DNA from: Xestospongia bergquistia
Lineage: Eukaryota; Porifera; Demospongiae; Haplosclerida; Petrosiidae
Assembly (NCBI GenBank): GCA_963965975.1
Contig: OZ014413.1
Coordinates: forward strand, 7,962,101 to 8,026,100
DNA length: 64,000 bases
Reading direction: 5' to 3'
Positions 15,770 through 30,913 of the stretch are shown piece by piece. Position numbers and translations under genes: made by a program. Numbering within the stretch: position 1 is the stretch's first letter; the number at the start of each line of letters is the position of its first letter. The notes beneath the pieces are model-generated. The model did not search any database and was not told the origin of the DNA. It worked only from the letters and a program-made list of their open reading frames with translations.

Positions 15770-16787
15770 ATGCTATTTTCTCTGTTGTTGCTCTGTTTAT
15801 CTTTGAGCAATAAAGTATTTGCTCAAACATGTACACGTGGCTCAGTTCGTGTGGTAAGTTATAAGACTGCATACATATTTAGTGGTTTTCTAGTCCTCGT
15901 TTTCGTATGGAGCTGTTGAAGTCTGCTTGAATAATACATGGGGTAGTATCTGCACTGACTTCTGGAATAACAATGATGCTAGTGTTATCTGTAGACAACT
16001 GGGATACTCTCCTTATGGTAAATGTTAAGAGCATCGTTTGCTTCATTTCCAAAACTTATTTTAGGTGCAGTAGGATCTTCTGTAGTCTACTACTTGTCAT
16101 CAGCTACCAAACACAACATCATTGATTTAAACTGTACTGGTAATGAGAACACTATACTGGACTGTCCTTATAATGGTCTCTCTAACTATTATTGTTCTCT
16201 GAGTAAAGATGCTAATATATTTTGTAAATGTGAGTGATCATTTGCGAGTATCAATAGCTATTCTATCATTCTGTAGCTCTTACTGTTGCCACTTATAGTA
16301 ATTGCATTGATGGAGATGTTCGTTTAGTAGGAGGTGCATCACAATATCAAGGAAGAGTTGAAGTGTGTCTTAATAGAGTATGGGGCACAGTCTGTGCACG
16401 CAGTAGTTGGGGTAGTCAGGAAGCCAAGATTGTCTGTAATCAGATTGGTGCATTAACAATAGGTAACTGCTTCATTACTATACTTATATACATAAATAGG
16501 AGGAATGTTTTCATTATAGAGTTACCTATTAATATTGTAATTGTGGCTTATTCATGTCATTTCAAGCAGCCACAAGTTTGTGGTACTTTAGCAAACTATT
16601 TATTTAGGCTACTCATATGGCCTTGTTGGTAGTTCATCATTCTCACAAGGCACTGGACCTGTTCTACTTGGATATTTGAATTGTAGTGGAACAGAAACTA
16701 ACTTGGTAAAGTGTAATCAGAACTATCGGGATACTCATATTTACTGTCGTCAAAATCATTATTATGATGGAGTTGTTATCTGTAGTT
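15770..16787 (+). other. Unit B signal peptide, SRCR1 and SRCR2
   Basis: Residues 1-18 are a hydrophobic signal peptide ([18 protein letters not shown]), followed by AQTC, the first SRCR cysteine. SRCR1 is unusual in having three exons: a phase-0 intron splits its first half after the SVRV motif, and the next exon resumes at [15 protein letters not shown]2 is 16277-16462 plus 16608-16787, and its internal intron (145 bp) is longer than most. Both domains keep the WG(S/T)(I/V)C core. Confidence 0.85.
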
Positions 16788-28700: not shown

Positions 28701-30913
28701 AGAGTTCAATTGTTCTGATTAAATATCTGTTATTTTATTTTTAAAGTTGTCTACTACTTTTTTGGAAGTGGTTGGTAATGTCTTAGATGTCAATCAAGAC
28801 ACTTTACAAACTAGCCAAGTAACGTCTAACACATCAGCTAAGTTAGTTCGCTTTTTATACTTTTAAAATGAATGTTGTTTCTTTACACAGAATGCTAGAA
28901 GCTATTGAGTCAGTTGTAGAGAATATACCAATCACTAATATTTCTGAGCCCATTATAATAACACAGAAATCATTTGCTGTATCAATACAACAAGTGAATA
29001 CTGAGGAATTCACACAATTTGGTCAAACATTCAGTGTAAATTATAGAGGATTTACAGATGAAAATCAAACTCTTAGCTCTAATGATTTGGCATTTGGATC
29101 AACTAGTCAACAGTCAACAGCAGCTATTAATTTACCAAACAATTTACTGAGTGCACTTCCAAATATTGCTAAAAATAATACTAGAATCACTCATTCAGTT
29201 TTTACCACTGACTCTTTATTTTTGAGGAGAAATAATTATAATTTAGAGGTTGGTAGTGTTATCATCTCAACTACTGTTGTGGAAGCAGATACAATAAGGA
29301 AACTGGATCCTCTAGTAGAGCTTATATTCCTGGTCAATCCAGTAAGTCTATATCATTATAGTATTTTTCTGATATTAATTATTCTTACTGTCTATAGAAT
29401 TTAAATGGATCATCTCCTCAATGTTCATTCTGGAATCAATCTTTAAATAGTAAGTTGAGGTAGTTGTTGTTACAAAATAACTTCTTCTATTAGATGGATA
29501 TGGAGACTGGTCTAAGGAAGGATGTCATAACACTACTAATAATAAAACAGAAGTTGTATGTGAATGTAATCATCTCACTAACTTTGCTATATTACTGGTA
29601 AGTGGAAAGAATTAACATATTGATACTTCAATAACTATCATTATGATATTATAGGATGTGTCTCCTGTTATTGATAAACCAACAGAGCAAACTGAACTGA
29701 CATTGTTATTGGATTCTGTGACTTACATTGGTATCATTGTCTCTTTCTTTTGTCTAACTATTACTATCATCTCTTATCTTGCTAACAAGTATACTATTAA
29801 TTTATACTCATTATTATGTTGTATGTTTTCCTTATAGGAAATTACGAACTTCTGATCATGGGCAACTTTTAATTAATTTGTGTTTAGCTTTAACTGGTCT
29901 CTATATAGCCTTTATCTTTGCTGTACACAGTCAATCTGTCCCTGGTCTTTGTGCACTTGCAGCTGCAGTGTTGCAATATTTTTTTCTTGTTGCATTTATG
30001 GTCATGGCTGCTGAGGCTATTAACTTGTATATGAATTTAGTGATTGTTCTTGGGAAAAAAATTCATCATTTTGTTTTAAAAGCAACAATATTATCATGGA
30101 GTGAGTACTTACGTTATCGATATGATTAACTATAGTCAATTCTCACATATAGTTACTCCATTGTTTATTGTCTTGTTCTGTTTTGCTCCAAATTATAAAA
30201 ACTACTTGAGTGATCATTTGTAAGTACACTTGTTATGTCTATATATAAAACATCTGTATTTTATTTATAGTTGTCGTGCCTTTAATGAACCATATTATAT
30301 TGGTATGATAGTTCCATTTCTAATTATATATATATTCAATTGGGTGGTATTCGTCATCATTATTGTCTCTCTTCTACGAAAAAACTTCCAGCCTGAAATC
30401 AAATCAAAGAAAAGTACTAACATAAAATTTGTTCGTGAGCAACTCATTATTGTTACAACATTGTCAATTTTGTTTGGTATGGGATGGGGAATTGGACTAT
30501 TAGCCACTCAAGATATCCATACCAACAAAACAGTACGAGATCTCTTTGCTGCTTTGTTTGTGATCATTACTGCCTTTCATGGTCTGTTCATCTTTATAAT
30601 GCATTGTCTTCGATCGAGGGAAGTAAGAAATGTTTGGAAGCGATGGTTCTTTAATGTATCAGGCAAAGACTTTAATGAACTTACAACATCTGTATTTGCT
30701 ACTAAACACAAGAAATCTGTCATTAAAGTAACTAACCCTTTGCACACAACTGTGGCTTCCATTAAGCGAGAAAGAGAGACTATTACTGATACAGCTTTAG
30801 CCAGTATGAATACTGAGTCAAAGGTAGAATGTGTTATGTCAGCCGAAACATCATTCATTGAAGATGATAATGAAAATGAAAAGAAAATGCTGGAAATAGA
30901 AGAAAAAAATTAA
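15770..30913 (+). CDS. Unit B: 20-SRCR / Ig-EGF-Ig / HRM-GAIN-GPS adhesion GPCR
   Basis: The gene predicts a 3,383-residue receptor in 57 exons, all frame-consistent. I start at ATG 15770 because the next codons encode a typical signal peptide; an upstream TTG is not a plausible eukaryotic start. Exons 1-5: 15770-15853, 15894-16017, 16065-16229, 16277-16462, 16608-16787. Exons 6-41 are 18 SRCR pairs at 17946-26422. Exons 42-57: 26876-27202, 27253-27372, 27425-27712, 27761-27849, 27903-27985, 28039-28193, 28250-28515, 28566-28697, 28747-28841, 28891-29341, 29398-29449, 29494-29597, 29655-29788, 29838-30100, 30153-30219, 30271-30913. Approximate residues: SRCRs 20-2294, Ig 2295-2403, EGF to 2443, Ig to 2539, linker to 2648, HRM to 2737, GAIN-GPS to 3015, 7TM to about 3285, tail to 3383. 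No stop or frameshift was seen. Transcript ends and alternative splicing are unknown. Confidence 0.9.
16788..17945. mobile_element. Unit B intron 5 with transposon debris
   Basis: This 1,158-bp intron is far longer than its neighbours. A + strand frame at 17078-17260, continuing with a stop and shifts to about 17390, has the look of a HIRAN-like domain: motifs [20 protein letters not shown] and IGSLPRK. A 17-bp unit ATTATTAATATTCATGT is repeated three times at 17027-17076; D has it once. At about 17447-17500 lies a short LINE-tail-like sequence (GGCATTCGTTTTGTCAATAA) that ends a much longer element in D. Relative to D, about 1.8 kb is absent at 17448. Confidence 0.6.
20649..21060 (+). other. 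Unit B SRCR8: core cysteine replaced by tyrosine
   Basis: The usual WGTVCDD core reads [11 protein letters not shown] here, so the second-half-of-motif cysteine is lost while its neighbours are kept (EICINNAWG before, QTVCNALGY after). Unit D has the same replacement (51825-52224), so it predates their duplication. The second exon also encodes a Tyr-rich loop, with a run of six Tyr, His, then Tyr pairs. Confidence 0.8.
24057..24101 (+). repeat. In-frame (TAC)n microsatellite in SRCR15 of unit B
   Basis: Fourteen TAC codons and one TAT give 15 consecutive tyrosines in the second exon of SRCR15 (24031-24243), followed by D-Y-Y. Unit D has a short interrupted tract at the same place (about 55145-55170) and unit C a shorter one, so this exon is 48 bp longer in B than in D. 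The repeat stays in frame and the flanking SRCR motifs ([12 protein letters not shown], then ICQ) are intact. Confidence 0.9.
26876..27712 (+). other. Unit B Ig-EGF-Ig module
   Basis: The first Ig-like exon (26876-27202) has SFNC, W(R)KNGQ and DNGSYSC. The EGF exon (27253-27372) has six cysteines in [19 protein letters not shown] spacing. The second Ig exon (27425-27712) has NLTC, ILWYKD and DRGFYHC. Each is one exon with phase-1 borders. The intron after the EGF begins GCAAGT at 27373 instead of GT. Such modules usually mediate adhesion in cell-surface receptors. Confidence 0.9.
27761..28193 (+). other. Unit B unassigned linker between Ig2 and HRM
   Basis: Three exons (27761-27849, 27903-27985, 28039-28193) encode about 109 residues, kept in frame in A, B, C and D. 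The last has an alternating hydrophobic-polar pattern ([30 protein letters not shown]) that could be a beta-alpha-beta fold, possibly SEA-like, but I see no diagnostic motif and leave it unassigned. Confidence 0.6.
28250..29597 (+). other. Unit B HRM, GAIN and GPS
   Basis: Exon 28250-28515 matches the hormone-receptor motif: W near the start, SCPCG, ATRYCGG, GAMW and a final C. Exons 28566-28697, 28747-28841 and 28891-29341 form the GAIN region, rich in NxS/T sites. The GPS spans 29398-29449 and 29494-29597: C-SFW, then W, GC, C-C and [10 protein letters not shown]. Known aGPCR chemistry cleaves between Leu and Thr, here between 29576 and 29577, leaving TNFAILL as a potential tethered agonist. 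The catalytic His, Leu and Thr are all present. Confidence 0.92.
29655..30913 (+). other. Unit B seven-transmembrane domain and tail
   Basis: TM1 is in exon 29655-29788 ([13 protein letters not shown]), TM2 to TM4 in 29838-30100 and 30153-30219, and TM5 to TM7 in 30271-30913. Class B2-type landmarks include the [16 protein letters not shown] helix, [12 protein letters not shown] in TM6 and [12 protein letters not shown] in TM7. The cytosolic tail of about 100 residues is Ser/Thr/Lys/Glu-rich and ends in an acidic [13 protein letters not shown] residues are nearly identical among A, B and D, and the mid tail varies. Confidence 0.93.

Follow-up and report, generated by a model that had tools for sequence, protein, structure and literature searches.

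A tandem family of very large sponge adhesion receptor genes predicted to join 20 SRCR domains to a GAIN-GPS-7TM core

We analyzed a stretch of 64,000 nucleotides (nt) from the sponge Xestospongia bergquistia (assembly GCA_963965975.1, contig OZ014413.1, positions 7,962,101 to 8,026,100 of the forward strand), in the following called the window. It has a GC content of 31.2% and carries genes of very large adhesion receptors, which form a tandem family on the plus strand. Judged by its sequence, the locus is an intact, tandemly duplicated adhesion G protein-coupled receptor (GPCR) of extreme size with SRCR domains, and the two complete genes share the same predicted domain order: a signal-peptide-like start, 20 SRCR domains, Ig, EGF and a second Ig domain, a weakly matching HRM, GAIN-GPS containing an HL|T site and a seven-transmembrane (7TM) region. 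A first-pass annotation of the same DNA had proposed two complete units of more than 3,300 residues each. Both the units and their size reappear in our spliced models as two genes of 56 exons, but that annotation had passed over a pseudogene and the intact 3' end of a third gene. The members of the family are:

15770 to 30913, plus strand: gene 1 (unit 1), 56 exons, 3329 amino acids, start codon fixed at the position of the first-pass annotation
45006 to 61933, plus strand: gene 3 (unit 3), 56 homologous exons, 3308 amino acids, phases as in gene 1, start codon fixed likewise
14 to 5141, plus strand: a third gene (unit 0), exons 39-56, starting with the second half of SRCR19 and ending with the stop codon, upstream part beyond the window
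32012 to 39154, plus strand: a decayed pseudogene (unit 2), exons 14-37 and 42-48 (48 partial), with stops and frame breaks

The full-length Pfam scan refers to the product of unit 1, and unit 3 was assessed by SRCR profiles, exon-by-exon comparison and hydropathy. The scan returned 20 SRCR stretches (PF00530, E=0), two Ig domains (Ig_3 with 2.5e-27 and I-set), GPS (1.9e-16) and 7tm_2 (4.6e-25, covering 3-250 of 250 positions). EGF reached 20.5 against a cut-off of 21.5 and passed it with 27.5 when the exon was scanned alone. SRCR, GPS and 7tm_2 were thus found by the domain search of the spliced product, whereas the predicted HRM stayed below threshold. GAIN gave no Pfam match of its own in the scans of unit 1; it was assigned because the alignment to the solved receptors ADGRG2 (9.3e-51) and ADGRG6 (1.6e-45), the best solved structures among the matches listed (60 of 74), runs through GAIN, GPS and 7TM. 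In gene 1 the domains are distributed over the exons as follows:

15770 to 15853, plus strand: exon 1, start codon, signal-peptide-like segment of 18 residues (from the sequence; hydropathy peak 1.54) and beginning of SRCR1
15894 to 26422, plus strand: exons 2-41, SRCR1-20 as ten odd-even pairs, two exons for each of SRCR2-20, SRCR1 starting in exon 1
26423 to 26875, plus strand: intron 41, the SRCR20-Ig joint, with a candidate alternative terminal exon at 26459-26496 (12 residues and a stop)
26876 to 27202, plus strand: exon 42, Ig domain 1 (Pfam, gene model)
27253 to 27354, plus strand: exon 43, EGF-like (Pfam, gene model)
27425 to 27712, plus strand: exon 44, Ig domain 2 (Pfam, gene model)
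28250 to 28515, plus strand: exon 47, HRM-like, under the Pfam cut-off
28566 to 29597, plus strand: exons 48-52, GAIN region with the GPS motif of 12 residues at its end (Pfam, structure alignment)
29655 to 30913, plus strand: exons 53-56, 7TM and cytoplasmic tail (Pfam, structure alignment, hydropathy)

The GPS motif with its HL|T site is alike in units 0, 1 and 3. At a hydropathy threshold of 1.6 no segment was detected ahead of the 7TM block in either product, and the 10 and 8 raw segments within the block were merged by eye to seven helices. The start of both products also remains under this threshold with peaks of 1.54 and 1.58 (maximum of the remaining ectodomain 1.21 and 1.41), and what had been called a signal peptide is therefore retained as signal-peptide-like, a call made from sequence and hydropathy rather than by a dedicated predictor. 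Each product contains 58 N-glycosylation motifs. A secretin-type 7TM, a GPS with an HL|S/T site, a GAIN domain and a long ectodomain with adhesion modules (SRCR, Ig, EGF) mark the proteins as adhesion GPCRs, and with at least one SRCR domain they also fall into the SRCR superfamily.

The number of SRCR domains given by the first-pass annotation was confirmed in both genes, as half-exon SRCR profiles matched the first and the second half of the domain 20 times each in unit 1 and likewise in unit 3, all on the plus strand. In a tree of the 40 domains the odd- and even-numbered SRCRs are fully split (20 + 20 rows, support 99/98), and every SRCR of gene 1 (20/20) groups with its counterpart of the same number in gene 3. 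If two classes of ten were ordered at random, they would alternate perfectly in about 1 of 100,000 cases (2/C(20,10)). The odd/even split together with the same-number pairing indicates that the array consists of ten odd-even pairs, which predate the gene duplication. This composition of ten alternating two-domain pairs is a new observation. Some long branches meet in the tree, for example SRCR6 with SRCR12, and finer groupings within the two classes were therefore disregarded. The 40 domains share eight cysteine columns, six with cysteine in 40/40, one in 38/40 and one in 33/40. Eight conserved cysteines define SRCR group B, and two exons per domain are a group A trait. Sequence comparison shows that SRCR9 has relatives among the SRCRs of CD163, DMBT1 and MARCO. 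The text of PMC10855680 describes two-domain duplication units for Amphimedon SRCR genes and, for sponges, a seven-cysteine motif; the linked sponge genes treated there have mostly three exons per domain, in contrast to the two exons of SRCR2-20 described here.

Two trinucleotide repeats in gene 1, found with TRF at 24055-24100 (SRCR15) and 20984-21026 (SRCR8), give poly-tyrosine loops within the domains. The tyrosine run of SRCR15 is interrupted and much shorter in gene 3, which suggests that loop length may vary by slippage.

The gene models were obtained with a gene finder trained on the half-exon SRCR profiles and were then curated by hand against the copies. Start codons were preset to 15770 (unit 1) and 45006 (unit 3); with a free start, the run on unit 3 picked a later in-frame ATG at 45021, and the models stop where the first-pass annotation had placed the stops. 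Spurious exons of the initial runs, chiefly in intron 5, were dropped on the basis of copy agreement, which also served to set the boundaries of exons 5-6, the Ig-to-GAIN exons, the 7TM exons 53-55 and several exons of gene 3; for exons 44-46 the modelled splice sites are one choice among alternatives. GT-AG borders at 110/110 introns follow by construction, as the finder admits no other sites. All ends of exons 2-41 are in phase 1. Exon lengths differ between genes 1 and 3 in 12 of the 56 pairs, each time by a multiple of 3 (12/12), and intron lengths in 35 of the 55 pairs, 9 of them by a multiple of 3. The continuity through splice frames on which the first-pass annotation was built agrees with these figures, although part of the agreement in exon lengths is circular, since the frame is kept by the models themselves. 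The frame of unit 0 is open with its sole stop at the end.

The weak point of the architecture is the continuity between SRCR20 and Ig, for which the comparison of three copies provides support. Donor, acceptor and phase 1 at this joint are common to units 0, 1 and 3, and the pseudogene likewise has SRCR exons directly 5' of its Ig exon, with no match for exons 38-41 in place in the comparison of copies at the locus. Units 0 and 3 have no in-frame Met ahead of the Ig exon, and a search of intron 41 for ATG exons of at least 12 codons in phase 1 yielded one candidate in unit 3 and none in units 0 and 1. In unit 1, an in-frame ATG accompanied by a hydrophobic stretch lies ahead of the Ig exon; this ATG was considered as a separate start and rejected, since it is absent from units 0 and 3. 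One full-length receptor would probably be made from each gene.

At the level of the predicted product, the exons, phases, domains and the HL|T site are established. Adhesion GPCRs can be activated by a tethered agonist, and a working mode can be proposed on this background. One polypeptide would combine ten SRCR pairs, Ig-EGF-Ig, a degenerate HRM and GAIN-GPS-7TM, and its GAIN domain would cleave itself at HL|T. The SRCR array may serve as a long, multivalent antenna that captures ligands from microbes or the extracellular matrix, and a bound ligand, or pull on it, would shift or remove the large N-terminal fragment, which would expose the tethered agonist TNFAILL and switch on the 7TM and G proteins. 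We consider this explanation as a whole, a tandem SRCR adhesion GPCR in which engagement of the antenna would free the tethered agonist, to be probable. The receptor is probably a microbe- or surface-sensing adhesion GPCR. This is in line with the text of PMC6208332, where a response to microbial patterns is reported for one SRCR gene and for GPCR genes of a sponge. If one polypeptide is made, a scavenger-type recognition array would be directly linked to G-protein signalling, and animals without antibodies would have a route by which their cells could respond on touching microbes or matrix.

Several points weigh against a full-length receptor working in this way. The HRM is HRM-like only (best score 22.4 against a cut-off of 26.2 bits), and the acidic pair directly after the third cysteine (CD[DE]), which belongs to the cation site of SRCR domains, occurs in 5/20 SRCRs of gene 1 and 4/20 of gene 3, so that the usual cation-dependent binding may be lacking in many domains. 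A 2026 paper deals with signalling of an adhesion GPCR independently of tethered agonist and GAIN, and the assumed mechanism is therefore not universal. The SRCR20-Ig joint is drawn from comparison of the copies. At this joint, a short stop-ended exon with the consensus AAY[MI]VLL[IV]INFK could follow SRCR20 in three copies after an intron-like stretch of 36 nt (35 nt in unit 0). Conservation within intron 41 is higher over the first 75 nt than over the remainder in two of the three pairwise comparisons (Fisher p 0.012, 0.024 and 0.78; the pairs are not independent), and AATAAA occurs downstream of the short exon in units 0 and 3.

The conserved short exon would fit one gene with two products, in which alternative 3' ends lead to a secreted SRCR-only protein besides the full receptor. 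This agrees with full continuity of the gene, but AT-rich introns generally yield short hydrophobic frames by chance, and intron 41 of unit 1 contains neither AATAAA nor ATTAAA; we regard two products as unlikely. The same low expectation applies to the wider idea of a giant pattern-recognition GPCR locus, in which each gene would give a soluble 20-SRCR protein through this terminal exon as well as the same antenna wired to G-protein signalling. If two products shared one antenna, the ten alternating SRCR pairs would make antenna length a countable, evolvable trait.

Somewhat less probable still are two neighbouring genes, a secreted 20-SRCR protein ending after SRCR20 and a separate Ig-EGF-Ig-HRM-GAIN-7TM adhesion GPCR. 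The short terminal exon, the better conserved start of intron 41, the AATAAA of units 0 and 3 and the ATG with hydrophobic stretch of unit 1 could all be read in this way, and intron 41 is long with 453, 447 and 441 nt in units 1, 3 and 0 compared to a median of 49 nt in units 1 and 3. Its length alone is a weak argument, since one or both genes have more than 140 nt in six further introns. Moreover, the copies share no ATG exon in intron 41, units 0 and 3 have no in-frame Met upstream of Ig, and splice sites and phase are identical across the three copies, all of which speaks for the single full-length receptor.

Genes 1 and 3 are 77-96% identical per segment at the protein level, and comparison of their codons shows purifying selection on both. 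The ratio of nonsynonymous to synonymous substitution rates (dN/dS) is below 1 in 28/28 segments (range 0.14-0.99), and the pooled values are 0.33 for SRCR1-20 (bootstrap 0.28-0.41), 0.42 for Ig-EGF-Ig (0.23-0.88), 0.36 for HRM/GAIN (0.22-0.60) and 0.23 for GPS and 7TM (0.14-0.36). Odd and even SRCRs have similar values (0.35 and 0.32), and the top single values are 0.99 for SRCR15, at a lowish dS of 0.14, and 0.74 for Ig1. As values of two paralogues, these argue against diversifying selection overall. An allorecognition or arms-race locus with an SRCR array diversifying under positive selection might be suspected from the tandem copies including a pseudogene and from the fact that 15/20 SRCRs (range 0.77-0.95) are less identical between the genes than the 7TM (0.902), but the low dN/dS of the array, obtained from paralogues and not alleles, the equally low values of odd and even domains and the single maxima at SRCR15 and Ig1 make this the least probable of the alternatives. 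Allorecognition, one of the functions named in the first-pass annotation, accordingly finds nothing in its favour.

Among known proteins, the human group VIII receptors ADGRG2 and ADGRG6 are the closest to the GAIN-GPS-7TM part in best-match order; to our knowledge they lack an SRCR array. CD163 (M130), DMBT1, CD5L and other multi-SRCR proteins also have several homologous SRCRs per chain. We know of no GAIN or 7TM in these proteins, and here ten alternating SRCR pairs sit on a GPCR. SRCR-bearing adhesion GPCRs as such are already known from sponge and amphioxus, and the 20-SRCR gene is an extreme member of this known class. According to the text of PMC4302439 (Krishnan 2014), the Amphimedon queenslandica adhesion GPCRs Aq712029 and Aq715659 carry multiple SRCR repeats, and Ig, EGF, HRM and GPS are listed among sponge adhesion GPCR domains. 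They share with our genes the sponge adhesion GPCR core with multiple SRCR repeats; this comparison is by description, as SRCR count and sequence are not in that text. In the same source, some adhesion GPCRs of sponges take a position basal to human group VIII and Aq715659 one basal to groups I and II, in contrast to our best solved match ADGRG2 of group VIII, which is a best match and not a tree position. In amphioxus, SRCR is likewise found at the N-terminus of adhesion GPCRs (PMC2246102, Nordstrom 2008), but a long array and the order SRCR-Ig-EGF-Ig are unmentioned in the text of that paper. The placozoan C-type-lectin adhesion GPCRs described in the text of PMC6321704 (28/36 CTLD receptors on secretin/adhesion GPCRs) are alike in their working, with pattern-recognition domains on such receptors; they differ in having lectin domains instead of SRCR, and no common origin of the ectodomains is implied. 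We found no closer case in the text of PMC12716839, PMC13197933, PMC8242945, PMC11797021, PMC4704026 and PMC12723187. Figures and supplements aside, neither the order SRCR(20)-Ig-EGF-Ig-HRM-GAIN-7TM nor the ten-pair composition was found in the literature text, and because the search covered text, a 20-SRCR model may already exist in annotation. The statement that 20 SRCRs on one adhesion GPCR are no textbook arrangement is fair for the number, but the class itself is in print (PMC4302439 and PMC2246102, by their text). In Amphimedon, 158 of 296 SRCR genes lie in tandem arrays according to the text of PMC10855680.

As two similar complete genes lie next to a third 3' end and a pseudogene, array growth would be directly readable at this locus. 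Over exons 39-56, divergence is lowest between units 0 and 3 (dS 0.089, compared to 0.170 for units 0 and 1 and 0.159 for units 1 and 3). A further copy is represented by a decayed fragment, identified by copy comparison:

10414 to 10909, plus strand: decayed 7TM fragment of a further copy

Together with this fragment, SRCR3 scraps adjoining the C-terminal part of a 7TM exon at 8128-8535 are relics of further decayed copies. Pattern searches gave 4 matches in viral contigs (7TM exon) and 69 in prokaryote genome contigs (GAIN exon), with 0 confirmed, as expected of an animal gene, and neither Rfam at gathering threshold nor a tRNA scan gave a match. Two similar open frames (95 and 93 amino acids, CSMWN...) lie about 1.6 kb apart at 7702-7986 and 9343-9621; the first, the sole copy scanned, has no Pfam match.

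SRCR2 and SRCR3 are separated by a long intron of 1158 nt in gene 1 (16788-17945) and of 3256 nt in gene 3 (46019-49274). A stretch common to both contains a weak HIRAN-like frame (17069-17257, E 8e-4, sub-cut-off), and about 2 kb are extra in gene 3, with an opposite GC skew in their first part; this content of the intron possibly represents remains of mobile elements. The flanks of genes 1 and 3 are alike both upstream (13001-15769 and 42484-45005) and downstream (30914-31950 and 61934-63003), with about 82-87% similarity in the main pieces, which indicates that the duplicated block extends past the genes.

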